NCBI GenBank assembly: GCA_001767695.1
Contig: MELR01000021.1
Span: 45,722-95,726 of the forward strand
Reading direction: 5' to 3'
DNA: 50,005 bases
Origin: Actinobacteria bacterium RBG_16_68_21
GTDB lineage: Bacteria > Actinomycetota > Acidimicrobiia > Spongiisociales > UBA11373
The notes under the pieces are model-generated. The model was not told the origin of the DNA. It made no database searches and was given only the letters and a program-made list of their open reading frames with translations. Position numbers and translations under genes: made by a program. This document shows, piece by piece, positions 2,335-20,948 of this stretch; position 1 is the first letter of the stretch, and the number at the start of each line of letters is the position of its first letter.

Positions 2335-3024
2335 ATGGCGACGAATCGACCGTCGGGACGCCTGGTCAAGGACGAGCTGTACGGCCACTTCTCCCGCATC
2401 GGAAAGGCCGTGGCGCACCCCAAGCGGATCGAGCTGCTCGATCTCTTGTGTCAGGGAGAGCGCAGCGTCGAGGTGTTGGCGGACCGCGCCGCGATGAGCG
2501 TTGTCAACTGCTCTGCGCATCTGAGAGTCCTGCGCGAATCCCGCCTGGTGACGACGCGGAGGGAAGGCACCAGGGTCTTCTATCGCCTCGCCGACGACTC
2601 GGTCTGCACCTTCTTTGGAGTGCTGCGGGATCTTGCCACCGACCGATACGCCGAGGTCGATCGGATCGTCCAGGACTACTTCAACGCACGAGACGGCCTG
2701 GAGCCAGTCAGCCGCGACGAGCTGCTCCGCATGGCCGGTGACGGTGACGTCGTGGTCCTCGACGTTCGACCGGCCGAGGAGTACGAGGCGGGCCATATCG
2801 CGGGCGCGGTGTCGGTGCCTCTGGATGATCTACAAGCGCGGGTCGCCAGCTTCCCCGAAGGTGCCTTCGTGGTCGCCTACTGCCGGGGCCCGTATTGCGT
2901 GCTGGTCCCACAGGCACTCGAGGTGCTGCGCCGCGAGGGCTTCGAGGCACGACGCCTCGAAGATGGCTTTCCCGAGTGGCGACAGGCGGGACTGCCGGTA
3001 GCAGTCGGGCAAGAGAGCAACTGA
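2335..3024 (+). CDS. ArsR-family regulator fused to a rhodanese domain
   Basis: 229 residues. Residues 15-115 form a winged helix of the ArsR/SmtB type (HPKRIELLDLL, then recognition helix AMSVVNCSAHLRVLRE, then wing TTRREGTRVFYRL). Residues 125-225 form a rhodanese domain (VVVLDVRPAEEYEAGHI) whose active-site loop is AYCRGPYCVL, with catalytic Cys183 and a second Cys188. Such fusions sense or carry sulfane sulfur. The genes that follow (DsrE, SQR-like) point to a sulfide/persulfide-responsive switch. The DNA-binding half also carries Cys39, Cys59 and Cys91, which could be redox-active. The start is ATG 2335, which follows the candidate operator with little leader. First gene of a three-gene operon. 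Confidence 0.9.
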   Translation: MATNRPSGRLVKDELYGHFSRIGKAVAHPKRIELLDLLCQGERSVEVLADRAAMSVVNCSAHLRVLRESRLVTTRREGTRVFYRLADDSVCTFFGVLRDLATDRYAEVDRIVQDYFNARDGLEPVSRDELLRMAGDGDVVVLDVRPAEEYEAGHIAGAVSVPLDDLQARVASFPEGAFVVAYCRGPYCVLVPQALEVLRREGFEARRLEDGFPEWRQAGLPVAVGQESN

Positions 3025-3067
3025 TGACGAACCAGATTCGACGAGCACCCCGGAGGAGCGATCGCCA

Positions 3068-3421
3068 ATGAGTGAAACACTGTTCGTCCTCAACGACCCG
3101 CCCTACGGCACCGAGCGCAGCTACAACGGTCTGCGTCTCGCCGGCTCGTTGGCCCGCAAGGATGGCGAGCAGGTGCGGGTGTTCCTGATCGGTGACGCCG
3201 CCGCCTGTGCCAAGGAAGGCCAGAAGGTTCCCCAGGGCTACTACAACCTCGAGCTGATGCTGCGATCGGTCGGCCGCCGCGGCGGCGACATCGGAGTCTG
3301 CGGCACCTGCATGGACGCCCGGGGCATCACGGATACGGAACTCGCGGAGGGATGTCGCCGCAGCACGATGGATGAGTTGACCGACTGGACCCTACGCGCC
3401 GACCGGGTCCTGGTCTTCTGA
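3068..3421 (+). CDS. DsrE/TusD-family sulfur-relay protein
   Basis: A 117-residue single-domain DsrE-like protein. It opens with the typical strand and loop (ETLFVLNDPPYGTERSYNGLRLA) and has the second strand VRVFLIGDAAACA. A Cys pair in GVCGTCMDARGI sits where DsrE/DsrF/TusD proteins carry the cysteine that takes persulfide sulfur. Known relatives pass sulfane sulfur between rhodaneses and acceptor proteins in the cytoplasm. It lies between the rhodanese-fused regulator and the SQR-like gene, so it probably receives persulfide from those reactions. The start is ATG 3068 with GGAGG 10-14 bases upstream. Confidence 0.88.
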   Translation: MSETLFVLNDPPYGTERSYNGLRLAGSLARKDGEQVRVFLIGDAAACAKEGQKVPQGYYNLELMLRSVGRRGGDIGVCGTCMDARGITDTELAEGCRRSTMDELTDWTLRADRVLVF

Positions 3422-3451
3422 CCTTACGGACAACAAAGAACGGAGTCCATC

Positions 3452-4633
3452 GTGAGCGATGCCAAGACCGTGGTGATCCTGGGCGGCGGCGTCGGCGGGG
3501 TCGTCACCGCCGCCACCCTCCGCGAGCAGCTCCCCCACCAGCATCGGATCGTGCTGGTGGATCGTGAACCCGATCACTTGTTCGCGCCGTCGCTGCTGTG
3601 GCTGATCACCGGCCAGCGCACCGCACGCCAGATCTCCCGACCTCTCGACCGCCTCGCCAAGAAAGGCATCGAGGTGGTCTGCGGTGACGTCGACCGAATC
3701 GACCCGGGCACACGCCAGGTCTCGATCATCGAGCGGTCATCGACCGGCGCTACCTCCCGGGAAATCGAGGCCGACTACCTGGTGGTGTCGCTGGGAGGCG
3801 AACTCGCTCCCGATACGATCCCGGGCCTGGCCGAAGCAGGACACAGCTTCTACACCCTGGCGGGAGCCGAGAGCCTCCGTGACGCTCTCCGGACCTTCGA
3901 GGGCGGCCGGATCGTCGTCCTCACCGCCGCCCCCGCCTACAAGTGCCCGGCCGCCCCCTACGAAGCCGCCATGCTGATCAACGATCAGATTCGCAAGCGG
4001 AAACTCGACGATCGAACCCATATCGACCTCTACGCCGCTGAACCCGGTCCGCTCGGAGTAGCCGGACCGGACGTCTCAGCAGGCGTGCGCAGCATGGTCG
4101 AAGCAGCCGGAATCGACTACCACCCGGAGCACCAAGTCGTTTCGGTCGACACCCCAAAGCGGCGCCTCGTCTTCGCCAACGGAGCGACGGCCGAATTCGA
4201 CCTGCTGGCATATGTGCCGCCCCACCAGGCGCCGCGGGTGGTACGTGACGCGGGGATGGTGGACGACAGCGGTTGGATCCCGGCGGATCGAAACACCCTC
4301 CACACCGGATATGACGGCGTATACGCCATCGGGGACGTGACCGGCATCCCACTGAAGATGGGCAAGCTCCTGCCCATGGCGGGGGTGTTCGCCGAACGTC
4401 AAGCCAAGGTCGTCGCCCACAACATCAGCCACGACATCACCGGAGACGGAGAAATGAAGTGGTTCGACGGAAACGGCGAATGCTTCGTCGAGACCGGTGG
4501 AGGAAAGGCAGGGTTCGGACGGGGCGACTTCTACGCCGAACCCGCCCCGCAAGTGACCCTGCACCCGGTAGGACGCCGCTGGCACCTCGGCAAGGTGCTC
4601 TTCGAGAAGAGGTGGCTGTCGAAGTGGTTCTGA
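3452..4633 (+). CDS. Sulfide:quinone oxidoreductase-like FAD flavoprotein
   Basis: A 393-residue FAD-dependent disulfide oxidoreductase. The N-terminal Rossmann motif is VVILGGGVGGVVTAATL, and the second FAD contact is GVYAIGDVTGIPLKMGKLLPMAG near residue 290. Cys165 (AYKCPAAPYE) and Cys344 (GECFVETGGGKAGFG) match two of the cysteines that carry the polysulfide bridge in sulfide:quinone oxidoreductases. The third cysteine of type I enzymes (around residue 125) is missing, so a different SQR type or a related persulfide/quinone enzyme is possible. The C-terminal end (KVLFEKRWLSKWF) is amphipathic and aromatic, as in membrane-bound SQRs. The start is GTG 3452. The likely reaction is oxidation of sulfide to polysulfide with electrons passed to quinone. 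Confidence 0.85.
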   Translation: MSDAKTVVILGGGVGGVVTAATLREQLPHQHRIVLVDREPDHLFAPSLLWLITGQRTARQISRPLDRLAKKGIEVVCGDVDRIDPGTRQVSIIERSSTGATSREIEADYLVVSLGGELAPDTIPGLAEAGHSFYTLAGAESLRDALRTFEGGRIVVLTAAPAYKCPAAPYEAAMLINDQIRKRKLDDRTHIDLYAAEPGPLGVAGPDVSAGVRSMVEAAGIDYHPEHQVVSVDTPKRRLVFANGATAEFDLLAYVPPHQAPRVVRDAGMVDDSGWIPADRNTLHTGYDGVYAIGDVTGIPLKMGKLLPMAGVFAERQAKVVAHNISHDITGDGEMKWFDGNGECFVETGGGKAGFGRGDFYAEPAPQVTLHPVGRRWHLGKVLFEKRWLSKWF

Positions 4634-4685: not shown

Positions 4686-4953
4686 TTGACGGTCACGCCG
4701 TCCCGATATCGGCAGTGGCGAGACAGCCTGCTCGGTTCGATCACCGAGGGAACGCGAACTCATCTTTGAGTTGATCGGGGACGTCGAAGGCGTTGTGCTC
4801 CTCGATGTCGGTTCCGGCGACGGCACCTATTCGATCGCGGCCGCGAACCGCGGAGCCGTGGTCACCGCAGTCGACGCCTCCTTCGTCCTCTTGGCTCGGG
4901 CAGCGGCTACCCGGCCTTCCGACCTCAATGGGCGTGGCCCGTGGCGCTATTGA
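4686..4953 (+). pseudogene. Class I SAM methyltransferase fragment, frameshifted and truncated
   Basis: From TTG 4686 the frame reads TVTPSRYRQWRDSLLGSITE, and the next frame continues as ERELIFELIGDVEGVVLLDV then GSGDGTYSIAAANRGAVVTAVDAS. Together they match the N-terminus of UbiE-like methyltransferases (YxxW...LG...ERELIxELL, then SAM motif I). One extra G near 4750 breaks the frame. The fragment stops at 4953, so motifs II-III and the C-terminal half are missing. It ends inside the 3' end of the opposite-strand gene. A sequencing error could explain the shift but not the missing half. Confidence 0.7.
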
Positions 4954-5266
4954 GTGTGAGTTGTGCCGTGGTCAGGTTCTCGAGCATGCGGGCGTAGAGC
5001 GGCAGACGTTTTGGCGCGCAGCACCCGATCTGGAGTCGACCGATCTGCGCGCCGGCATCTTCGAGGCGCAGGATGGCGTCGGCGGCGGCCAACGGAGTGG
5101 TCCGCACCCGGTCTAGTTGCGTGCGCGCCTCGGCCAAGGTGCTGGCGAGAGCCGCCATCCGCGGGCTCCGCCCTGGATCGCAGCAGGTGGCGTCGAGCTT
5201 CCCCAGGTCGGCCTCAGCGGCGTCCAGTGCGCTGAAAGCCGGATCGAGCGCTTCTGAAACTGTCAC
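4925..5266 (-). CDS. Small helical protein with duplicated Cys-Cys motif, unknown function
   Basis: 113 residues from GTG 5266. The protein is two repeats about 54 residues apart: LGKLDATCCDPGRSPRMAAL around Cys28-Cys29 and IGRLQIGCCAPKRLPLYARM around Cys82-Cys83. Each has the pattern (L/I)GxLxxxCCxPxRxPxxA followed by a predicted helix. There is no signal peptide or membrane segment. Paired Cys-Cys sites in a helical protein next to a metal-responsive promoter (5396-5427) suggest metal or thiol chemistry, but I do not recognise the family. The frame is open further upstream (ATG near 5362); the GTG was chosen because the upstream part has biased composition. It runs divergently from the redox operon. 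Confidence 0.6.
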   Translation of the reverse strand: MTVSEALDPAFSALDAAEADLGKLDATCCDPGRSPRMAALASTLAEARTQLDRVRTTPLAAADAILRLEDAGAQIGRLQIGCCAPKRLPLYARMLENLTTAQLTLNSATGHAH

Positions 5267-5395
5267 GGCGGGGAACCCTACCCAGCTTCCAACCCAACGC
5301 CACGAACTGGGGTGCCGATCTCCTGGCGAGCGGCTCCCTTCGCGTACCGATTGAGTGGCCATCACGCATCGACTCAATAGGGTCTTTCGGCCGTG

Positions 5396-5427
5396 TTGAC
5401 CCTCCAGTGGGCGGGAAGGTCTACGGT
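5396..5427 (+). promoter_or_regulatory. MerR-type promoter in front of the thiol-redox operon
   Basis: TTGACC (5396-5401), a 20-base spacer beginning CTCCAGTGGGCGGGAAGG, and TACGGT (5422-5427). The long spacer with a dyad (CTCC...GGAAGG) and the shared end GGT-N-TACG match the two minus-strand promoters at 15854-15885 and 19736-19767. MerR-family activators correct an overlong 19-20 bp spacer by untwisting the DNA. It points toward the small frame at 5434 and the glutaredoxin gene. Confidence 0.7.
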
Positions 5428-5433
5428 CGCGTG

Positions 5434-5640
5434 ATGACTGCACTCCGGCCGTCGACGTCCCTCGCGCCCTCCCCGGCATACCGATCCGTGCCCTCGGGAG
5501 GCGCACCTACTCAAGTCGCCACGGCGCTCGCCCGCCACGTCTTGCGGGGACCCTCCACATCGAGGCAGACGCCGGTGGGTTCCCGAGGGAAGCCGGCCGA
5601 GCTCCCCAGGCGGGCACAGTACGGGGGCCGGCGATCGTGA
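5434..5640 (+). CDS. Possible leaderless small ORF coupled to glutaredoxin
   Basis: The ATG lies exactly seven bases after the last base of the -10 box of the MerR-type promoter, where transcription should start, so the message would be leaderless. The 68-residue frame has TGA at 5638-5640 overlapping the GTG start of the glutaredoxin gene at 5637, the layout of translational coupling. The product is rich in Pro, Ser and Arg and shows no domain, so the peptide may matter only for its translation. It could also be chance. Confidence 0.35.
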   Translation: MTALRPSTSLAPSPAYRSVPSGGAPTQVATALARHVLRGPSTSRQTPVGSRGKPAELPRRAQYGGRRS

Positions 5641-5951
5641 ACAACCCGACACTCTCCCGGTCTGCTACCCGACCCGCCGGTCTGATCGACGTCGTTGTGG
5701 TCACCGCCCCCAACTGCCACTTCTGTGCCGACGCCAAAGCCATCCTCGCCGAGTTGGCCCAGCAGTATCGCCTACGAACTCGAGAAGTAGATCTGGCTGA
5801 TCCCGAGGGAACCGCCCTCGTCCGGCGACTCAGGGTGCCCTTCCCCCCGATCGTGATGATCGACGGGACGTTCTTCGGACACGGGAGGATCTCGCGGCGA
5901 AAGCTCGAAGCAACTCTCGCGAGGCGCGCCCACCGGACGGCCGATAGCTGA
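5637..5951 (+). CDS. Glutaredoxin-like thiol oxidoreductase
   Basis: 104 residues. After a 17-residue extension, the thioredoxin fold starts at LIDVVVVTAPNCHFCADAKA, with redox site CHFC. The cis-Pro segment (VPFPPIVMIDGTFFGHGRIS) is typical of glutaredoxins and of small thioredoxin-like proteins encoded with heavy-metal genes. No signal peptide is visible, so it should act in the cytoplasm, reducing mixed disulfides or supplying electrons to CcdA, which follows. The start is GTG 5637; the stop overlaps the ATG of ccdA (TGATG). First recognisable gene of the redox operon. Confidence 0.82.
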   Translation: MNNPTLSRSATRPAGLIDVVVVTAPNCHFCADAKAILAELAQQYRLRTREVDLADPEGTALVRRLRVPFPPIVMIDGTFFGHGRISRRKLEATLARRAHRTADS

Positions 5952-6889
5952 TGGACGGAGTGTTCCTCGGCGGATCGATCCTGGCGGCGTTCATCGCCGG
6001 GGCGGTAGCGCTCTTCGCCCCCTGTTGCATCACGGTGATGTTCCCCGCCTACCTGGCTGCGGCCGTACGCAACAACCGCTGGCGTCTGGTCCCGCTCACC
6101 ATGATCTTCGCCACAGGCGTGGCGGTCGTGCTCGTGCCGCTGACACTCGGGCTCACCGTCTTGACCAGGGCGCTGCTCGGGGCACACACGATCGTCTATG
6201 CGCTCGGCGGCCTGCTGATGCTGCTGTTTGCCGCCTTGGCCGCGACCGGGGGGACCTGGTCGCTCCCGTTCCTGCGCAGTTCTCCCGACATCGCCCGCAC
6301 CGACTCGGGCGGGGTCTTCGCGCTCGGAGTGTTCTCGGGGGCCGCCTCCGCCTGCTGTGCTCCGGTCCTGGCCGGCGTGGTCGCTATGTCGGCGGTAGCC
6401 CCCGGGTTGTTCGAAGGCACCGCCATCGGGCTCGCCTATGTCTTCGGCATGGTCTTCCCTCTGGTCGTGGTCACTTTGCTGTGGGACCGAAGCCGCCTCG
6501 CTCGCAGTGGTCGTCTCGAAAGCCGGCCGGTCAGCTGGAAGCTCGGATCGCGCACATTCACCACGACCCGCCTCAGCCTGTGGGCGGCCGCCCTGTTCGC
6601 ATTGATGGGAGTCGTGCTGCTCGGAGTCGCCGCCACCGGCGCCACGCTTGCCCCAACGTTCCAACGCGGCCTGGCGGCCTGGTTGGAGAGCACCCTCACC
6701 CCGGTAGTGCGCTTCTTCGACCCAGTCCCCGACTTCGTGATGGGGCTGGCATTGCTCGGCCTGGCCGTTGGCGCAGTCGTTCTTTCGTCACGACGCCACA
6801 CCGCAGAACCGTCTGAAACCGACCATAGGAGGCAGACCAATGAAACTAGCTGCCATGCAGACAGCGACACACATGGATCCCACGCGTGA
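5951..6889 (+). CDS. ccdA: CcdA-family membrane thiol-electron carrier
   Basis: A 312-residue multi-spanning membrane protein of the CcdA/DsbD-beta family, which moves reducing equivalents from the cytoplasm to thioredoxin-like proteins outside the membrane. Conserved cysteines sit in the first and fourth hydrophobic segments: LFAPCCITVMFPAYL and AASACCAPVLAGVV. About seven or eight hydrophobic segments are visible, with extra helices at the C-terminus (residues 215-285), so it is longer than minimal CcdA (about 220-240). It overlaps the glutaredoxin stop by one base and the next gene by 50 bases. Its likely partners are the anchored redoxins at 6840 and 8866. Confidence 0.88.
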   Translation: MDGVFLGGSILAAFIAGAVALFAPCCITVMFPAYLAAAVRNNRWRLVPLTMIFATGVAVVLVPLTLGLTVLTRALLGAHTIVYALGGLLMLLFAALAATGGTWSLPFLRSSPDIARTDSGGVFALGVFSGAASACCAPVLAGVVAMSAVAPGLFEGTAIGLAYVFGMVFPLVVVTLLWDRSRLARSGRLESRPVSWKLGSRTFTTTRLSLWAAALFALMGVVLLGVAATGATLAPTFQRGLAAWLESTLTPVVRFFDPVPDFVMGLALLGLAVGAVVLSSRRHTAEPSETDHRRQTNETSCHADSDTHGSHA

Positions 6890-10234: not shown

Positions 10235-10312
10235 GGTTGGCGAGATCACACCTCGGCACTGCGACCCCAGCAGGCGAACCCAAGAGATGACAAGCGAGAG
10301 GAACCACAAGAC

Positions 10313-10636
10313 ATGGACGCGCACAAGAGGCTTTTCTCGGGAGGCGTGATCGTCGCCGCCCTTGCGGTTGGAGCATGGGCCATCCCGACGGGAGCGGCGA
10401 TGACCCCCACCGACACCCCGACGCCGATCGGAAACGGCACCATGACAGACCACATGGGAACCATGGGCGACATGACCACCATGACAGCCCACATGGGAAC
10501 CATGGGCGACATGACCACCATGACAGACCACATGGGAACCATGGGCGACATGACCACCATGACAGACCACATGGGAACCATGGGCGATGCGTGCGAGGTA
10601 ACTGGAAGCAGAGATCGATCATCGCCGACTCCGTGA
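10313..10636 (+). CDS. Secreted Met/His-rich tandem-repeat protein, probable copper binder
   Basis: 107 residues. A signal peptide (MDAHKRLFSGGVIVAALAVG, cleavage probably after GAWA or TGAA) precedes a repeat region in which the 13-residue unit MTDHMGTMGDMTT recurs almost four times. Each unit offers five methionines, one His and two acidic or Thr sites, a composition typical of periplasmic Cu(I)/Ag(I) ligands. A short tail with one Cys (GDACEVTGS) follows. It sits just upstream of a two-component system whose sensor loop is also Met-rich, so copper capture outside the membrane is the likely role. No homologous fold is recognisable. Confidence 0.72.
   Translation: MDAHKRLFSGGVIVAALAVGAWAIPTGAAMTPTDTPTPIGNGTMTDHMGTMGDMTTMTAHMGTMGDMTTMTDHMGTMGDMTTMTDHMGTMGDACEVTGSRDRSSPTP
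10442..10588 (+). repeat. 39-bp in-frame tandem repeat, 3.8 copies
   Basis: Units start at 10442, 10481, 10520 and 10559 (the last about 30 bases long). Full units are identical at DNA level apart from one base (GAC or GCC at the third codon), which points to recent expansion or gene conversion. Each encodes one 13-residue Met-rich unit of the secreted protein. Confidence 0.93.
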
Positions 10637-12935: not shown

Positions 12936-13307
12936 TCATGTCGCCACGATCCTGCCGCGCAACATGCCCATCTGGCAGGCGAACTCGTACTCCCCCGGTT
13001 GGGCCGGCGTGAATTCGACGGGCACATCCTCTCCTTCGGGCAGCTCGGCGGAGACGCCGAAGGCGTCGAAGACGACCCTCTCCGAGCAGGGGTCGGCTTC
13101 CTGGCGGTTGAACACCAGCCGAACCGGGCGGCCGGCCGCGACCTGAATCGTGTCGGGCGAGTAGCCGCCTCTCACCGCCACGCGGATCTCCTGGATCCCC
13201 GCCGATGTGGCCGCGGCGACGATCCCCTGAGTCTTGGACAGCCAGAAGTACCAGACGATTAGCGCGATGACGGCGGCTCCGATCAGATCGACGATGAGCA
13301 CAGTCAT
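12936..13307 (-). CDS. Membrane-anchored cupredoxin-like protein
   Basis: 123 residues. One N-terminal hydrophobic helix ([20 protein letters not shown]) carries a cupredoxin beta-sandwich: [36 protein letters not shown], then [18 protein letters not shown]. Candidate copper ligands are the Cys in ADPCSERV, the Cys in FACQMGM and the following Met, as in CupA-like domains that hand Cu(I) to an exporter. The first four bases of its coding sequence overlap the stop of the copper ATPase gene (13304), so it is co-translated with it. It probably works as a metallochaperone for that pump. Confidence 0.85.
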
Positions 13308-15826
13308 GCGGTGACTCCTTGTCTCTCGGGTGTGTCTTGGGCAGCGGCAATCGGTGTCGGGTTAGCCGGCCCTGCGGGGGGTGCCATCGGTGACCATCGG
13401 CGCAGCCGGTTGGCGTTCGAGACGACTGTCACCGAAGAGAACGCCATCGCCGCTCCGGCGAGCATTGGACTCAGAAGGACTCCGACAAACGGATACAGCA
13501 GTCCGGCGGCGATCGGGATCCCCAAGGTGTTGTAGCCAAAAGCACCGACGAGGTTCTGGCGGACGTTGCGGATGGTCGCCCTGGAAAGCTCGATGGCAGT
13601 GGCGATTCCACTCAGGCTGCCCTTGACCAGGGTGATGTCACCGGATTCCATGGCAACATCGGTGCCGGTGCCCATGGCCATTCCGACGTCGGCCTGGGCC
13701 AGGGCGGGGGCGTCGTTGATCCCGTCGCCGACCATGGCCACTACCCTCCCTTCGGCCTGTAGCGCCTTGACCTGGTTGGCCTTGTCTTCGGGAAGCACCT
13801 CGGCGAACACCCGGTCGATTCCCACCTGAGCGGCGATGGCCTCGGCGGTGCGGGGGTTGTCGCCGGTGATCATGAACACATGTAGGCCGAGGTCGTGGAG
13901 ACGGCGAATCGCCAACACCGAATCGGGTTTTACGGTGTCGGCGACGGCGATGACACCGCCGAGCTCGCCATCGATGCCGAGGACCATTGCGGTCTTCCCC
14001 TCATCGGCGAGACGTTCCATGACACCCTCGGCGCTACCGGCGGGTATCCCCTGATCGGCAAGGCACTTGAGGTTCCCCAAGACCACTCGGCGGCCGCCAA
14101 CCCTCGCGACGATGCCGTGCCCGGGGATCGCCTCGAACTCGTCAGAATCGGCGACATCGACACCTCGGGTACGTGCACCCGCCACGATCGCCTCCCCAAG
14201 CGGATGCTCCGATCCGACCTCCGCCGACGCCGCCAGGAACAGCACGTCCTCCTCGGTGAACCGCCCGAAGGCAGCCACGTCGGTGAGTTCGGGCTCGCCT
14301 CTGGTGACCGTGCCCGTCTTGTCCAGCACGACGGTGTCGATGCGGTGGGCGGTCTCCAGGGCGTCGCCGGACTTGACGAGGATGCCGTGCTCGGCGCCCT
14401 TGCCGATCCCCACCATCAGCGACGTCGGGGTGGCCAGACCGAGGGCGCAGGGGCAGGCGATCACCAACACGGTGACCGCGGTGATCACCGCGTAGAGCAG
14501 CGTGGGAGACGGCCCGAAGGTGAACCACACCATGAAGGTCAGTACTGCGACGATAATCACCGCCGGCACGAAGTAGCCCGCCACCTTGTCGACCGTGCGC
14601 TGGATCGGCGCCTTGGACCCCTGGGCGTCGCGCACCATCCGGATGATCTGGGCCAGCATCGTGTCTCGTCCCACGCGAGTGGCGCGGAACCGGAACGAAC
14701 CCGTCTTGTTGATGGTCGCCCCGATGACCGGAGAGCCCTCGGCCTTCTCCACCGGGATCGACTCACCGGTGACCATCGACTCATCCACCGCCGACGCACC
14801 GGAGAGCACAACGCCATCGACGGGAATCTTCTCGCCCGGGCGGACCACGACCACATCGTCCATCACCACGTTCTCCACGGGGATCTCGATCTCGGTGCCG
14901 TCGCGGATCACCCGGGCGGTCCTGGCCTGAAGGCCGATCAGCTTCTTCAGGGCTTCGGACGTGCGAGCGCGCGCCCGGATCTCCAATGCCGCACCCAGCA
15001 CAACCAGAGCGGTGACCACCGCGGCCACGTCGAAGAAGACGTCGCGGAGCCGCTCCTCGGGGAAGAACCCCGGGTACACCAGGGCCACCGCGGAATACAG
15101 CCATGCCGCCGACGTGCCCAGGGCGATCAGCGTGTTCATGTTCGCCGACCGATGACGCAGTGCAGTCCAGGCCCCGGTGAAGAACTGCGATCCCGACCAG
15201 GCGAGCACCGCAAGCGTCAGCACGGCCATGGCGCCCCAAATGACGTTGAGAGCGACCGAGCCCTTCTCGGGCACGCCGGGGAAGATCTCCGGGTACGAGA
15301 AGTAGATCACCGGAAGCGAAACCACGGCAGCGAACCAGAACTTGTGGATGAGGGTCCGGAAGAGCCGCTGCCTCCCCTCCTGCTCGGCGTCGCCGTCGCC
15401 GCCGTCGGTCGCCGGATGGGCGCGGTACCCGGCTGCCGTCACCGCAGCCACCAGCTGATCGATGTCGGTGGCCCCGGGAGTCAGTTCCACGGTCGCTTCC
15501 TCGGTGGCAAGGTTGACTCGGGCATCGACGACACCAGGCACATCACTGAGGGCGCGCTCGATCGTGCTCACACACGAGGCACACGTCATGCCCTGCACAG
15601 CGAGATGGATCGAGTCGGTAGAGCCGCCGAGAAGGAGGCCGCCGGCTGGTGGACCACCAGCATCCCCCTCCACGTGAAGGCCCCCGTCGGAGGATGTGAA
15701 GTACGCGAACGGGTCAGCTGCGAACGCGCGGCGGCAGTGCTCAGAACAGAAACCGAGGTCGGGGTAGTCGTCCAGCCTGAGGGCTTCGTCGCTGACGGTC
15801 ATTCCGCATACCGGGTCATGTCTCAT
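13304..15826 (-). CDS. copA: Copper-exporting P1B-type ATPase with N-terminal YHS domain
   Basis: 840 residues. Residues 1-45 form a YHS-like metal site (DPVCGMT with Cys7, [11 protein letters not shown] with Cys27 and Cys31). Residues 72-140 form a heavy-metal-associated domain with GMTCASC (Cys82, Cys85). Eight membrane segments follow, with TGES, the CPC motif (Cys458-Pro-Cys460, [13 protein letters not shown]), the phosphorylation site DKTGTVT (Asp502), SEHPLGE and [10 protein letters not shown]. This is the P1B-1 pattern for Cu(I) efflux. I chose ATG 15826 because GGAAG lies eight bases upstream; an in-frame ATG at 15850 sits almost on the -10 box. It is driven by the MerR-type promoter at 15854-15885 and followed by the cupredoxin gene. 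Confidence 0.95.
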
Positions 15827-15853
15827 CTCGCGTCTTCCTGTGGCGTCCATGCC

Positions 15854-15885
15854 AACGTACACCCTCCAGTCAACTGGAATGTCAA
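15854..15885 (-). promoter_or_regulatory. MerR-type promoter of the copper ATPase gene
   Basis: Read on the minus strand: TTGACA (15885-15880), a 20-base spacer containing the perfect palindrome TCCAGT-TG-ACTGGA (15878-15865), and TACGTT (15859-15854). The 20-bp spacer centred on a dyad is the hallmark of MerR-family activation. The first 15 bases are identical to the promoter at 19736-19767. Confidence 0.82.
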
Positions 15886-15999
15886 GCGGAATCCCCGGCA
15901 TCTCTCGACTCCCCCGCGCCTCTGTCGCCCCGGCCCCAGGGGCCGACCTATTCGCCGAGTCGGGTGGCATACTCGACCGTTCGGACCGGAGGAGACTGA

Positions 16000-16554
16000 A
16001 TGAGACCCGGAACACTGAAGAGAGTCGTGGTCGCGCTGATCGTCCTCGCGATTGCCGCAACGGCATGCGGTGACGACGACGGTGAGGCGGCGGCCACGAC
16101 GACGGCAGTGACCAGTTCATCGACGATGGACATGACGAGTTCGACCATGGGCGACATGGGCAACGACGACCACCCCTTTGAGTGGGGCACGGCAGGCGAC
16201 CCGGCCAACGCCGACCAGATCATCGAGATCGCCGCCTCCGACGCGTTTCGCTTCGATCCCGAATCGGTCGAGGTGCACGTTGGCGAGACCGTGACATTCC
16301 GAGTGACCAACGAAGGGGCGATCAGGCACGAGTTCGTTGTAGGCACACCCGCCGAGCAGGATGACCACGAGGCGGAGATGGCCGATATGGGCAGCATGCC
16401 GATGGCCGACGAGACGAACGCCATCGGGATCGACCCCGGTGAGACCAAGGATCTCACCCTGACTTTCACCCAGGCGGGTGCGCTGCGCTTCGCCTGCCAT
16501 GTGACCGGCCACTTCGCAGCCGGGATGGTCGGGGCCCTCAACGTGCAGTCGTAG
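16000..16554 (+). CDS. Cupredoxin-like lipoprotein, probable copper binder
   Basis: 184 residues. A lipoprotein signal peptide ends in the lipobox AATAC (Cys at residue 23), followed by a Thr/Ser/Met-rich linker ([14 protein letters not shown]). The cupredoxin domain covers residues 70-182 ([20 protein letters not shown], then IRHEFVVG, then [15 protein letters not shown]). His in IRHEF, Cys and His in FACHVTGH, and the late Met are type-1 copper ligands in the usual order. An insertion rich in His, Asp and Met (residues 119-140) could add metal sites. It is divergent from the copper ATPase gene, 114 bases from that promoter, and is closed by a hairpin. Confidence 0.87.
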
Positions 16555-16681: not shown

Positions 16682-18982
16682 TCAGGATGGCGCGGGCAGC
16701 GAAAGCCGCTTGAGGAGGACCGCGTTGGTAGCCACGATGAAGCTGGAGCCGGACATCGACAGGGCAGCCCACTCCGGTCGAAGCACCCAGCCGAGCGCTG
16801 GGTAGAGGAGCCCGGCGGCGATGGGTAGGGCGATGGTGTTGTACCCGACGGCCCACGCCAGGTTCTGCCGCATCTTGCGCCGGGTGCCTCGACCGATGCG
16901 GAGCGCGACCGGCACGTCGAGGGGATCGGAGCGCATCAGGACTATGTCGGCGGTCTCGATGGCGACGTCGGTGCCGGCACCGATGGCGATACCGAGGTCG
17001 GCTGTGGCCAGTGCGGGAGCGTCGTTGACGCCGTCACCGACCATTGCCACCTTCTTTCCCGTCGCCTGCAGCCGAAGGATCTGGTCGGCCTTGTCCTCCG
17101 GCACGACTTCGGCGATCACCGTGTCGATGCCGAGCAGTCCTGCGATCCGCTCGGCCGTCGCTTGGTTGTCCCCGGTGAGCATCACGACCTCGATACCCAG
17201 GTCATGGAGATCCCGCACCGCTTGGGCCGACGTTGGGCGTGGAGCATCGGCGATCCCGATCGCCGCGCGCACGGCGCCGTCCACGGCTGCGAGCACGGCG
17301 GTCTGCCCTGCGGCTGCTAGCTCTTCGCCGCGGGAGCCCAGTTCCCCAAGATCGATAGCCTCGCGCTCCATGAGCCGAGCATTGCCGACAACGATGCGAT
17401 GTCCTCCGACGTTGGCAACGGCGCCATGGCCTGGCACGTTTTCGAACCCCTCGGCGACTGCCGGGGTGAAGCCCTGGGTGGTGGCGTAGCGGACAACCGC
17501 TTCGGCCAGCGGATGTTCGGATTCCCTTTCCACGGCGGCGACAAGCCGCAGGACGTCCTCGACAGGCCCGGCGGGGATGAAGTCGGTGACTTCAGGTTCG
17601 CCCTTGGTCAGGGTGCCCGTCTTGTCGAGTACCACCGTGTCGATGCCAGCCGAGGTCTCAATTGCCCCGGCGTTCTTGAACAACACCCCACGGCGCGCCC
17701 CCATACCGGTCCCGACCATGATGGCAGTGGGCGTGGCGAGTCCGAGAGCGTCGGGACAAGTGATAACGACAACAGTGATGGCGAACAGCAAAGCCAACGC
17801 GAACGTCTCCCCGGCGATCAGCCAACCGATCAGCGTCAGCGCTCCACCGGCGAGAGCCACCAGGACGAGCCAGAACGCGGCGCGATCGGCAAGACGCTGC
17901 CCGGGGGCCTTGGAGTTCTGTGCTTCTTGGACCAGTCGAACGATCTGGGCGAGGGCGGTGTCGGCGCCGACCCGGGTGGCCCGGACCCGTAGGGTGCCGT
18001 TCTTGTTGATGGTGGCTCCGACAACGCCCTGACCAGGCTGTTTGTGGACTGGGAGACTCTCGCCGGTGACCATCGACTCATCGACCTCCGACTCACCGTC
18101 CTCCACCATTCCGTCAACCGGGATGCGGGCTCCGGGGCGAACCAACATCAGTTCACCTACCCGCAGGCCGGAGGTCGGCACCTCGACCTCCCCGTCGTCG
18201 CGGATCACCACCGCCATCGGCGGGGCGAGGCTCATGAGCGTGCGGATGGCGTCGTTGGCTCCGCCGCGAGCTCGCATCTCGAACCAGTGGCCCAGCAGCA
18301 CGAACACTGCCAGCATCGCCGCCGCCTCGTAGAACACTTCGCCGCCGCCGCCGAGAGTGATCACCAGCGAGTACAGCCAGCCCGTCCCGATGGCGACCGC
18401 CACCAGCACCATCATGTCGAGGGTTTGACGACGTAACGCGGCGGCGGCGCCTGCGAAGAAGATCCATGACGACCAGAACACGACCGGCAGGCTGAGGATC
18501 AGGGCGAAGACATCATCCCGAAGCCCGAAGGGTGCGCCAACGTCGAAGCCGAGGGACCCCCGTCCGAGTGGTGAGTAGGCCACGATGGGGATGGCGAAGA
18601 GGAGCGCCACCAGGAACCGGTTCCGCATGTCGGCGACCATCGCCGCCATGGACATTTCGCCGTGGCTGCCGTGGCCCATCACGGCGTGTGGCGAGTGCCC
18701 CTCGCCGGCGTGAGCCTGCGGAGTCTCCTGATAGCAGACGTGCTCAGGCACCGACTCGCCGGCACAGTGGTACCCGCACTCGATCACCCGCTCCCGTAGG
18801 GCCTCGGCGCTGGTCGCGGTCGGGTCGAAGGTGACGGAGGCCGACTGCGCCACCGGGTTGGCGTCCACGGTCATCACGCCGGGCTGTGCCCCGAGGAACG
18901 CCTCGACTTTGTGCTTCTCGGAGGCGAATTGCATACCTCTGACCTGCAGCACGACCGACTTGGCATCGGTGTGGTTCTTCAT
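16682..18982 (-). CDS. P1B-type metal ATPase with CPD motif and Cys-less N-terminal domain
   Basis: 766 residues. The N-terminal domain has the heavy-metal-associated fold ([20 protein letters not shown]), but the two metal-binding cysteines are replaced (Phe19, Glu22). A His/Met-rich linker ([20 protein letters not shown]) precedes the membrane part. The catalytic motifs are intact: TGES, DKTGTLT (Asp453), SEHPLAE and [10 protein letters not shown]. The transmembrane metal motif is Cys409-Pro-Asp411 ([13 protein letters not shown]) instead of CPC or CPH. His-rich N-termini occur in CopB-like pumps, but CPD leaves the substrate open (copper, silver or another ion). The start is ATG 18982. It lies downstream of the YHS and small-protein genes and may share their transcript. 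Confidence 0.92.
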
Positions 18983-19477: not shown

Positions 19478-19702
19478 TCAGGCCCGATGCTCAGCTCCGT
19501 GATGAGACCCCTCCATCGGCCCGCACCCCCCGCAACATGCCCCGGCGTGCTCGGCGGACGCGGTTTCGGCAGATTCGAGGAACTGGCCGGGTGACACCAG
19601 GAACGTTCGACGGCAGTGCTCCGAACAGAACCCGAACTCCGGATGGTCCGCGACGGTGAGTGCCCCCTCGCCGACCGTCATGCCACACACTGGATCACGC
19701 AT
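19478..19702 (-). CDS. Small YHS-domain metal-binding protein
   Basis: 74 residues. The N-terminal 40 residues ([20 protein letters not shown] then [20 protein letters not shown]) are closely similar to the first 45 residues of the copper ATPase at 13304-15826, with the same three cysteines. A Cys/His-rich tail follows (HAGACCGGCGPMEGSHHGAEH). It is probably a soluble Cu(I) or heavy-metal chaperone. The start ATG 19702 has a strong AGGAG eight bases upstream, and the promoter at 19736-19767 matches that of the ATPase gene, so the promoter plus first exon-like module appear to have been duplicated together. Confidence 0.82.
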   Translation of the reverse strand: MRDPVCGMTVGEGALTVADHPEFGFCSEHCRRTFLVSPGQFLESAETASAEHAGACCGGCGPMEGSHHGAEHRA

Positions 19703-19735
19703 GTCTTGCTCCTTCACACAGACGCGAACACCCCG

Positions 19736-19767
19736 ACCGTACACCTTCCTCCCAACTGGAATGTCAA
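19736..19767 (-). promoter_or_regulatory. MerR-type promoter divergent from the merR-like gene
   Basis: On the minus strand: TTGACA (19767-19762), a 20-base spacer starting TTCCAGTTGGGAGGAAGG, and TACGGT (19741-19736). The dyad is ACNTTCC-N8-GGAANGT. It lies in the gap between the YHS gene and the regulator gene, the usual place for a MerR-family operator. Confidence 0.82.
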
Positions 19768-19784
19768 GGACTAACCTGCCGGTC

Positions 19785-20255
19785 ATGCAAATAGGTGAAC
19801 TCGCCCGCGCAACCGGAGTGCCCACCAAGACGATCCGCTACTACGAGGAGATCGGTGTCCTCCCGGCGCCACCGCGCGCCGACAACGGGTACCGCTCCTA
19901 CCCACCCGAGATGGTCGATCGATTGACCTTCGTCAAGGATGCCCAGGAGACGGGTCTCACCCTCAGCGAGATCGGGTACATCCTCGATCTCCGCAGCAAG
20001 GGGGTCGGCACCTGCCACCATGTCGTCGAGTTGCTCGAGCGACACCTGGCCGATCTCGACAAACACATAAGAACGCTTCGGGCGACTCGCAAGCAGCTGC
20101 AAGGGCTCACCGAGCGTGCCGCCGCGCTGGACCCCTCGGGCTGCACGGACCCGAATCGCTGTCAGACGATCTCCCCAGACCCCGGGGTGAGGATCAAACC
20201 GAGGCTCCGCGCGGCGCACGTCCATTCAGGTCCCCAACCTCACGAGCACCACTGA
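19785..20255 (+). CDS. MerR-family metal-responsive activator
   Basis: 156 residues. The N-terminal winged helix (MQIGELARATGVPTKTIRYY, EEIGVLPAPPRADNGYRSY) is typical of MerR proteins, followed by a long dimerisation helix (about 80-115). Metal-site candidates are Cys77 (VGTCHHV) with two His, and Cys120 and Cys126 in the C-terminal loop (DPSGCTDPNRCQT). In this family residue 77 is Ser in the monovalent sensor CueR and Cys in Zn, Pb, Cd and Hg sensors, so this protein carries the divalent-type signature beside copper genes. The tail is His-rich (HVHSGPQPHEHH). A -10-like TAACCT lies seven bases before the ATG, which suggests a leaderless message. Confidence 0.9.
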   Translation: MQIGELARATGVPTKTIRYYEEIGVLPAPPRADNGYRSYPPEMVDRLTFVKDAQETGLTLSEIGYILDLRSKGVGTCHHVVELLERHLADLDKHIRTLRATRKQLQGLTERAAALDPSGCTDPNRCQTISPDPGVRIKPRLRAAHVHSGPQPHEHH

Positions 20256-20358: not shown

Positions 20359-20469
20359 GTGACCACTCTCCACCCAGTCGCCAGGATCGTCCCACCAGTC
20401 GGGCAACCGCCGAAGGCGGCGGAGCGAACCCCGATGTCCACGACGGCAGAGAAGACAGGGGGGCGTTAA
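20359..20469 (+). CDS. Possible leaderless 36-codon ORF coupled to cytochrome c
   Basis: GTG 20359 lies seven bases after the last base of the -10 box of the MerR-type promoter, the same spacing as the small frame at 5434. The frame begins TTLHPVARIVPPVGQ and ends in TAA at 20467-20469, whose last base is the first base of the cytochrome ATG (TAATG). The peptide has no recognisable motif. It may serve to bring ribosomes to the cytochrome gene, which has no strong Shine-Dalgarno. Confidence 0.35.
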   Translation: MTTLHPVARIVPPVGQPPKAAERTPMSTTAEKTGGR

Positions 20470-20948
20470 TGGGTAACCTGAAGAAACGGACACCGCCAGA
20501 GCAGCATCCCCAACGAACCGGGCGCAAGCCTCCGCGCGCCCTGAAGTGGGTGATCATCGGGATTCTCGCCGTCGGCGTCGTCGCCATCGGGCTGTCGGTT
20601 GCCGGACAGAGCCCGTCGGCGACCACGCCCGTCGCCATAGACCCCGGCGCGGTGGCCGCCGGCGAGCAGCTCTACCAGGCGAACTGCGCCGCCTGCCATG
20701 GCCCGGACCTCCGCGGCACCGCGGTCGGGCCTCCATTCCTCGATGTGATATACGCCCCCAACCACCACAGCGATGAGAGCTTTCAGCGAGCCGCAGAAGT
20801 CGGCGTACAGCCCCACCATTGGAACTTTGGGCCCATGCCCGCGGTTGGAGCCAATGCCGGCCTCACGAGGGACGACGTCGCGCTGATCGTTGCCTATGTT
20901 CGCTCGGAGCAAGAAGCCGCCGGCATTTTCAACGATCCGAGCCACTGA
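20469..20948 (+). CDS. Membrane-anchored mono-heme cytochrome c
   Basis: 159 residues. A basic N-terminus and one membrane helix (WVIIGILAVGVVAIGLSVAG) are followed by a class I cytochrome c domain: heme motif CAACH (NCAACHGPDLRGT) and probable sixth ligand Met in NFGPMPAVGANAG. The C-terminal helix DDVALIVAYVRSEQEAAGI is typical. It faces outward and carries electrons to an oxidase or from a donor. Placement behind a MerR-type promoter, next to copper genes and CcdA-linked thiol proteins, is unusual and suggests metal-dependent expression. Confidence 0.88.
   Translation: MGNLKKRTPPEQHPQRTGRKPPRALKWVIIGILAVGVVAIGLSVAGQSPSATTPVAIDPGAVAAGEQLYQANCAACHGPDLRGTAVGPPFLDVIYAPNHHSDESFQRAAEVGVQPHHWNFGPMPAVGANAGLTRDDVALIVAYVRSEQEAAGIFNDPSH

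Follow-up and report, generated by a model that had tools for sequence, protein, structure and literature searches.

The window, by which we mean the whole analysed stretch of 50,005 nucleotides from Actinobacteria bacterium RBG_16_68_21, carries a small minus-strand gene for a protein with two Cys-Cys motifs (the CC protein). It lies between a sulfide-type gene set (rhodanese-ArsR, DsrE, SQR) and a run of glutaredoxin-like, TlpA and Lgt genes, while two copper P1B-ATPases are found about 8 kb and a metal-type MerR regulator about 14 kb away. The features are as follows.

4925 to 5266, minus strand: gene of the CC protein (113 aa, stop codon within the coordinates), starting with GTG; its homologs belong to a single order and share 38-65% identity
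5153 to 5206, minus strand: repeat 1, residues 21-38, LGKLDATCCDPGRSPRMA; C28, C29, R33 and P35 invariant in 37 sequences
4991 to 5044, minus strand: repeat 2, residues 75-92, IGRLQIGCCAPKRLPLYA; C82, C83, R87 and Y91 invariant in 37 sequences
5275 to 5280, minus strand: -10 box TAGGGT of the putative leaderless promoter of the CC gene itself, 14 nt before the GTG
5396 to 5423, plus strand: MerR-type promoter TTGACCCTCCAGTGGGCGGGAAGGTCTA, transcribed away from the CC gene and judged not its own
13304 to 16120, minus strand: copper-type P1B-ATPase (YHS + HMA + CopA-like), TIGR01511 622.6 bits, cut-off 397
16682 to 18982, minus strand: second copper-type P1B-ATPase, TIGR01511 588.1 bits, cut-off 397
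19656 to 20255, plus strand: metal-type MerR regulator, PF09278 over cut-off, E 3.1e-17

On one side of the gene, positions 2335 to 4633 (plus strand) hold an apparent sulfide/persulfide operon with an ArsR-rhodanese fusion, a DsrE-like protein and a type III-like sulfide:quinone reductase. Besides, a short methyltransferase-like fragment (4771 to 4953, plus strand; LLDVGSGDGTYSIAAANRGA) overlaps the 3' end of the CC gene and looks like the remnant of a truncated SAM methyltransferase.

The frame upstream of the GTG remains open up to 5506, and the start was placed at 5266 because of the homolog alignment and the conserved -10 box. We searched 149 genomes of relatives for homologs, and it turned out that 37 of them, including the window's own, contained matches (25 of 89 among the high-quality genomes), with two divergent copies in genome G003. 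The earlier note on this DNA had called the ORF real and selected, and this was borne out by 36 homologs at 38-65% identity, by 12 invariant columns in the alignment of 37 sequences (all four Cys among them) and by a codon-position bias. Compared with the closest relative (L032), the window gene differs at 34, 23 and 65 of the 113 first, second and third codon positions, so that third-position changes predominate, and 40 of the 71 residues identical between the two proteins are encoded by a synonymous codon change. Such comparisons indicate that the CC ORF is a real gene under selection at the protein level.

All homologs are confined to one order of Acidimicrobiia, the same order as the window. 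The homolog records that could be named are all uncultured MAGs, assigned to Acidimicrobiia/Actinomycetota, apart from a few unspecified "bacterium" and one labelled Acidobacteriota. Outside the order, no confident homolog was found in 397 genomes of the phylum and 198 of the class, and IMG/VR and the plasmids of PLSDB contained no relatives; the match in genome G115 (E 4e-4) was a chance alignment within an IspE-like kinase. Searches of Pfam, NCBIfam, PHROGs and PDB sequences gave no family match, which agrees with the earlier statement that the family is not recognised. A confident match to a non-metal family was likewise not found, while homologs in other genomes and a coding signature were. 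Three names, DUF6052, DUF4349 and Put_DNA-bind_N, were rejected as single sub-threshold matches to the CC family, and a C-type lectin match (3jqh) was a repeat artefact. The CC proteins are an undescribed family.

To describe the expression of the gene, two promoters have to be distinguished. A TANNNT box stands 12-15 nt upstream of the start at 31 of the 38 loci, while 0.86 would be expected from the upstream background, and this conservation therefore indicates that the CC gene is leaderless and has a promoter of its own. The protein would be made from this promoter, outside the adjacent MerR-type transcription unit. The earlier note had placed the gene divergent from the MerR-type promoter at 5396 and considered that it might be part of a metal or thiol response on that account. 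The promoter exists and is divergent, but it points toward the glutaredoxin-like gene, and in a regex scan its motif was absent near all 37 homologs, and control of the CC gene by it was rejected; because the motif is not kept near homologs, the divergence is regarded as incidental. Thus the tie through the MerR-type promoter fell, whereas a metal role itself stands as the best-supported guess on other grounds, namely ATPase proximity (see below). Transcription from this strong promoter (5396 to 6889, plus strand) apparently covers the genes of a glutaredoxin-like protein and of a membrane protein resembling CcdA, the latter with the CC motifs FAPCC and SACCAP and no Pfam or NCBIfam match. A leader frame of 67-77 aa overlaps the glutaredoxin start.

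The protein itself is built on a repeat. Repeat 1 reads L21-GKLDATCCDPGRSPRM-A38, with the Cys28-Cys29 codons at 5180-5185, and repeat 2 reads I75-GRLQIGCCAPKRLPLY-A92, with the Cys82-Cys83 codons at 5018-5023. The two copies of (L/I)GxLxxxCCxPxRxPxxA had been reported 54 residues apart, and C28 and C82 are separated by exactly 54. The family profiles of the N-half and the C-half align over 47 ungapped columns (hhalign, P = 8.2e-9), a match beyond chance that upholds the proposed internal duplication, and the CC protein is therefore regarded as a duplicated hairpin. As for the number of cysteines, 18 members have four and 19 have five, while one poor member has seven. His is the final residue in 30 of 38 members, and two members have His-rich N-termini.

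The monomer prediction suggested by the earlier note returned a confident four-helix bundle (AlphaFold2, pLDDT 91, pTM 0.84), and a divergent family member is likewise predicted as a four-helix bundle (pLDDT 93, pTM 0.86). The predicted helices of the window protein span residues 8-27, 35-54, 58-81 and 85-109, which means that helices lie not only after each CC, as had been claimed, but also before it. By eye, the protein has no apparent signal peptide or membrane helix. A tandem duplication of a helical hairpin would thus have given a small, probably cytosolic protein, in which the two hairpins are predicted to pack as one up-down-up-down bundle and helices 1 and 3 would each be followed by a loop that carries the CC pair of their hairpin. 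Since four helices joined by short loops put loops 1-2 and 3-4 at one pole, C28, C29, C82 and C83 are placed together by topology, and both CC pairs would lie at the same pole of the bundle. They may form one four-thiolate site, flanked by the invariant Arg33, Arg87 and Tyr91.

Up-and-down four-helix bundles are common. For the CC-protein models Foldseek returned only such generic bundles, none at E below 0.001. The best overall superposition was with the S23/Xcc0516 bundles (PDB 2rld, 2gsc), which share the up-down-up-down course (TM 0.72-0.76), but identity is 8-12%, E is 0.1-0.7 and no corresponding CC loops are known in them; this is a common fold and not a relationship. Another neighbour, Streptomyces lividans Ccsp (TM 0.57-0.60, E 0.33-0.8, not significant), is a Csp3 protein (PDB 6q6b/6ei0), and it is, as proposed for the CC protein, a thiolate-based, cytosolic four-helix bundle of about 113 residues. 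The cysteines of Csp3 line the core, however, whereas the CC protein carries four of its 4-5 Cys in two loops, is a tandem hairpin duplication and has no sequence match to the Cys-rich bundle family. Membership in Csp/Csp3 was rejected, as a four-helix bundle is predicted but both the Cys-lined core and a Pfam/NCBIfam match are absent. Csp3 proteins have 16-19 Cys (PMC10155185), and because the CC protein has 4-5, the storage role proposed earlier is unlikely.

For the 38 loci, we summarized the location of P1B-ATPases relative to the CC gene, with neighbour genes at the homolog loci called with a codon model. Four loci have a P1B-ATPase within 2.5 kb while 0.33 would be expected (Poisson P=4e-4), and five have one within 10 kb while 1.2 would be expected (P=0.007); both values are post hoc, for the test was chosen after the neighbours had been seen, and the expectation is conservative because it counts all P-type ATPases and not copper ones alone. 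The ATPases at the four near loci are copper-type, over the TIGR01511 cut-off. At L057 (genome G005) the CC gene is head-to-head with the ATPase gene, with about 45 bp between the starts; at L050 (G128) it is divergent from copZ-copA; at L058 (G003) it is convergent with the ATPase in an island that also contains MerB, MerR and CDF; and at L048 (G020) a cupredoxin is present besides the nearby ATPase. In the tree these loci fall into three lineages; L048 and L050 are sisters, and the ATPases beside them are different. The remaining 34 of 38 loci have no P1B-ATPase within 2.5 kb. All-against-all neighbour clustering and pooled Pfam counts against random loci found no conserved neighbour, and the idea of a conserved operon partner was dropped on this basis.

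A metal role has the best support among the guesses at function, given that copper P1B-ATPases are nearer to the gene than expected by chance at several loci. Further support comes from the four Cys, which all 37 sequences keep and which are located in two duplicated loops with an invariant Arg. The two copper ATPases about 8 kb from the window's own copy, the weak likeness of each CC loop to the metal loop of ZntR (see below) and the His residues at the termini of members also count in favour. We consider it close to an even chance, falling slightly short of it, that the CC protein is a low-capacity cytosolic thiolate protein binding a soft metal at the proposed four-Cys site, most likely Cu(I), with Zn, Cd or Hg also possible. 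It could then act as a low-capacity cytosolic metal buffer or carrier alongside P1B efflux pumps. Metal binding, site geometry and role are what we infer here, as is the preference for copper, which is deduced from the neighbours at a minority of loci. In some genomes the CC protein resembles CopZ and other HMA chaperones in being a small soluble protein encoded next to a copper P1B-ATPase, but it is predicted to be all-helical with CC loops, whereas CopZ has the HMA fold with MxCxxC. A match to PF00403 was not obtained, CopZ/HMA membership was rejected for this and the all-helical prediction, and at L050 CopZ itself is present besides the CC protein. The family offers a clean, testable predicted site, namely two invariant Cys-Cys loops that would supply four thiolates, in an almost uncultured group. 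If Cu(I) is bound, bacterial copper handling would gain a four-helix thiolate protein of low capacity that differs from both CopZ and Csp3, and designed tandem metal-binding bundles could be compared with a natural counterpart.

A related reading derives the protein from the MerR family, as a natural single-chain metal-binding domain in which dimerisation helix, metal loop and short helix were duplicated and the DNA-binding domain was lost. With the ZntR/MerR domain (PDB 1q08) the CC protein shares a helix ending in LxxLxxxCC, followed by a loop, a Tyr and an LExL helix, and it shares two copies in one chain with an engineered tandem MerR metal-binding domain, reportedly made by Song in 2004 (cited in PMC8153442). 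The NCBIfam ZntR model was a recurrent weak match in 8 of 37 members; in the examined ones it covered either the N-half (with ZntR residues 94-131) or the C-half (with ZntR residues 88-134), both in register with Cys114-115 of ZntR (E 0.009-0.2), and the ZntR metal-binding domain was the best plausible PDB-sequence profile match (E 0.19). In hhalign against 11 regulators (ZntR plus ten plasmid-borne ZntR/CadR/CueR/MerR-type ones) we got P 0.009 and 0.003, at scores that 0 of 60 and 1 of 60 column-shuffled nulls reached, but the probability was just 4-11%, and against the order's own MerR proteins homology was not supported. Among the ZntR, CueR and MerR reference sequences, that of ZntR is a 100% match to an E. 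coli record. The ligand set of ZntR is C79, C114, C115, H119 and C124 (PMC7911910), in which only the CC is kept in the family, as C79 has no counterpart, H119 corresponds to Arg87 and C124 to the variable residue 92. Moreover, helix 4 has 25 residues against two turns in MerR, and in MerR an antiparallel pairing of the domains puts the sites at opposite ends, while the CC pairs here would be at one pole. Membership in the MerR family was rejected, since the protein (113 aa of four helices) has no HTH or MerR HTH match and no ZntR ligands beyond CC. The likeness to ZntR/CadR/CueR/MerR-type regulators is weak and suggests resemblance rather than proven kinship, and a free-standing relative of the MerR-type metal-binding domain, minus the DNA-binding part and carrying Cu(I)/Hg(II) in the cytosol, seems improbable to us.

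The same cysteines could serve in other ways. Invariant arginines beside cysteines are also compatible with a thiol site for redox chemistry or anion binding, and the two CC pairs might alternate between reduced dithiols and disulfides, formed inside one hairpin or across the two, while Arg33 and Arg87 would depress the pKa of the thiols; such a protein would act in thiol or persulfide homeostasis. The invariant Arg in each loop fits such a protein, as do the flanks in the window (the SQR/DsrE/rhodanese-ArsR set, glutaredoxin-like and TlpA-like genes); this neighbourhood is specific to the window, however, with homologs sitting elsewhere, and the CC protein has neither a thioredoxin-like fold nor a CxxC motif, so we hold a thiol redox function to be unlikely, if worth keeping in mind. 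We consider a cofactor protein very unlikely, whether with an iron-sulfur cluster on the four thiolates or with heme or some other organic cofactor bound with their help. The four invariant Cys would be enough for a cluster, and the invariant Arg and Tyr might belong to the wall of a pocket, but Fe-S clusters are seldom ligated by CC/CC pairs, and neither a match to a known Fe-S family nor a conserved adjoining electron-transfer partner was found. We give as little credence to a role in structure or as an adaptor, for instance in binding a partner, for which the Cys would matter neither as metal ligands nor in redox chemistry. The generic fold, the lack of a conserved operon and the minority of loci with copper genes close by would agree with it, yet packing alone hardly explains four Cys without one substitution in 37 sequences together with the loop Arg.

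Several other genes around the copper ATPases in the window were also noted. A cupredoxin-like lipoprotein ORF (16000 to 16554, plus strand) lies on the opposite strand over the start annotated for the CopA-like ATPase (ORF 13304 to 16120), so the true start of the latter is doubtful. A small c-type cytochrome with CxxCH and "DLRGT...GP.FL" (20469 to 20948, plus strand) adjoins or is near the ATPases, and a c-type cytochrome by a copper P1B-ATPase is also found at L057, L058 and L048, which suggests a recurrent ATPase-cytochrome module. What is more, short tandem repeats (DHMGTMGDMTTMT) occur at 10246 to 10636 in a small exported Met/His-rich protein, which is likely a metal-binding periplasmic peptide and adjoins a response regulator/kinase pair.
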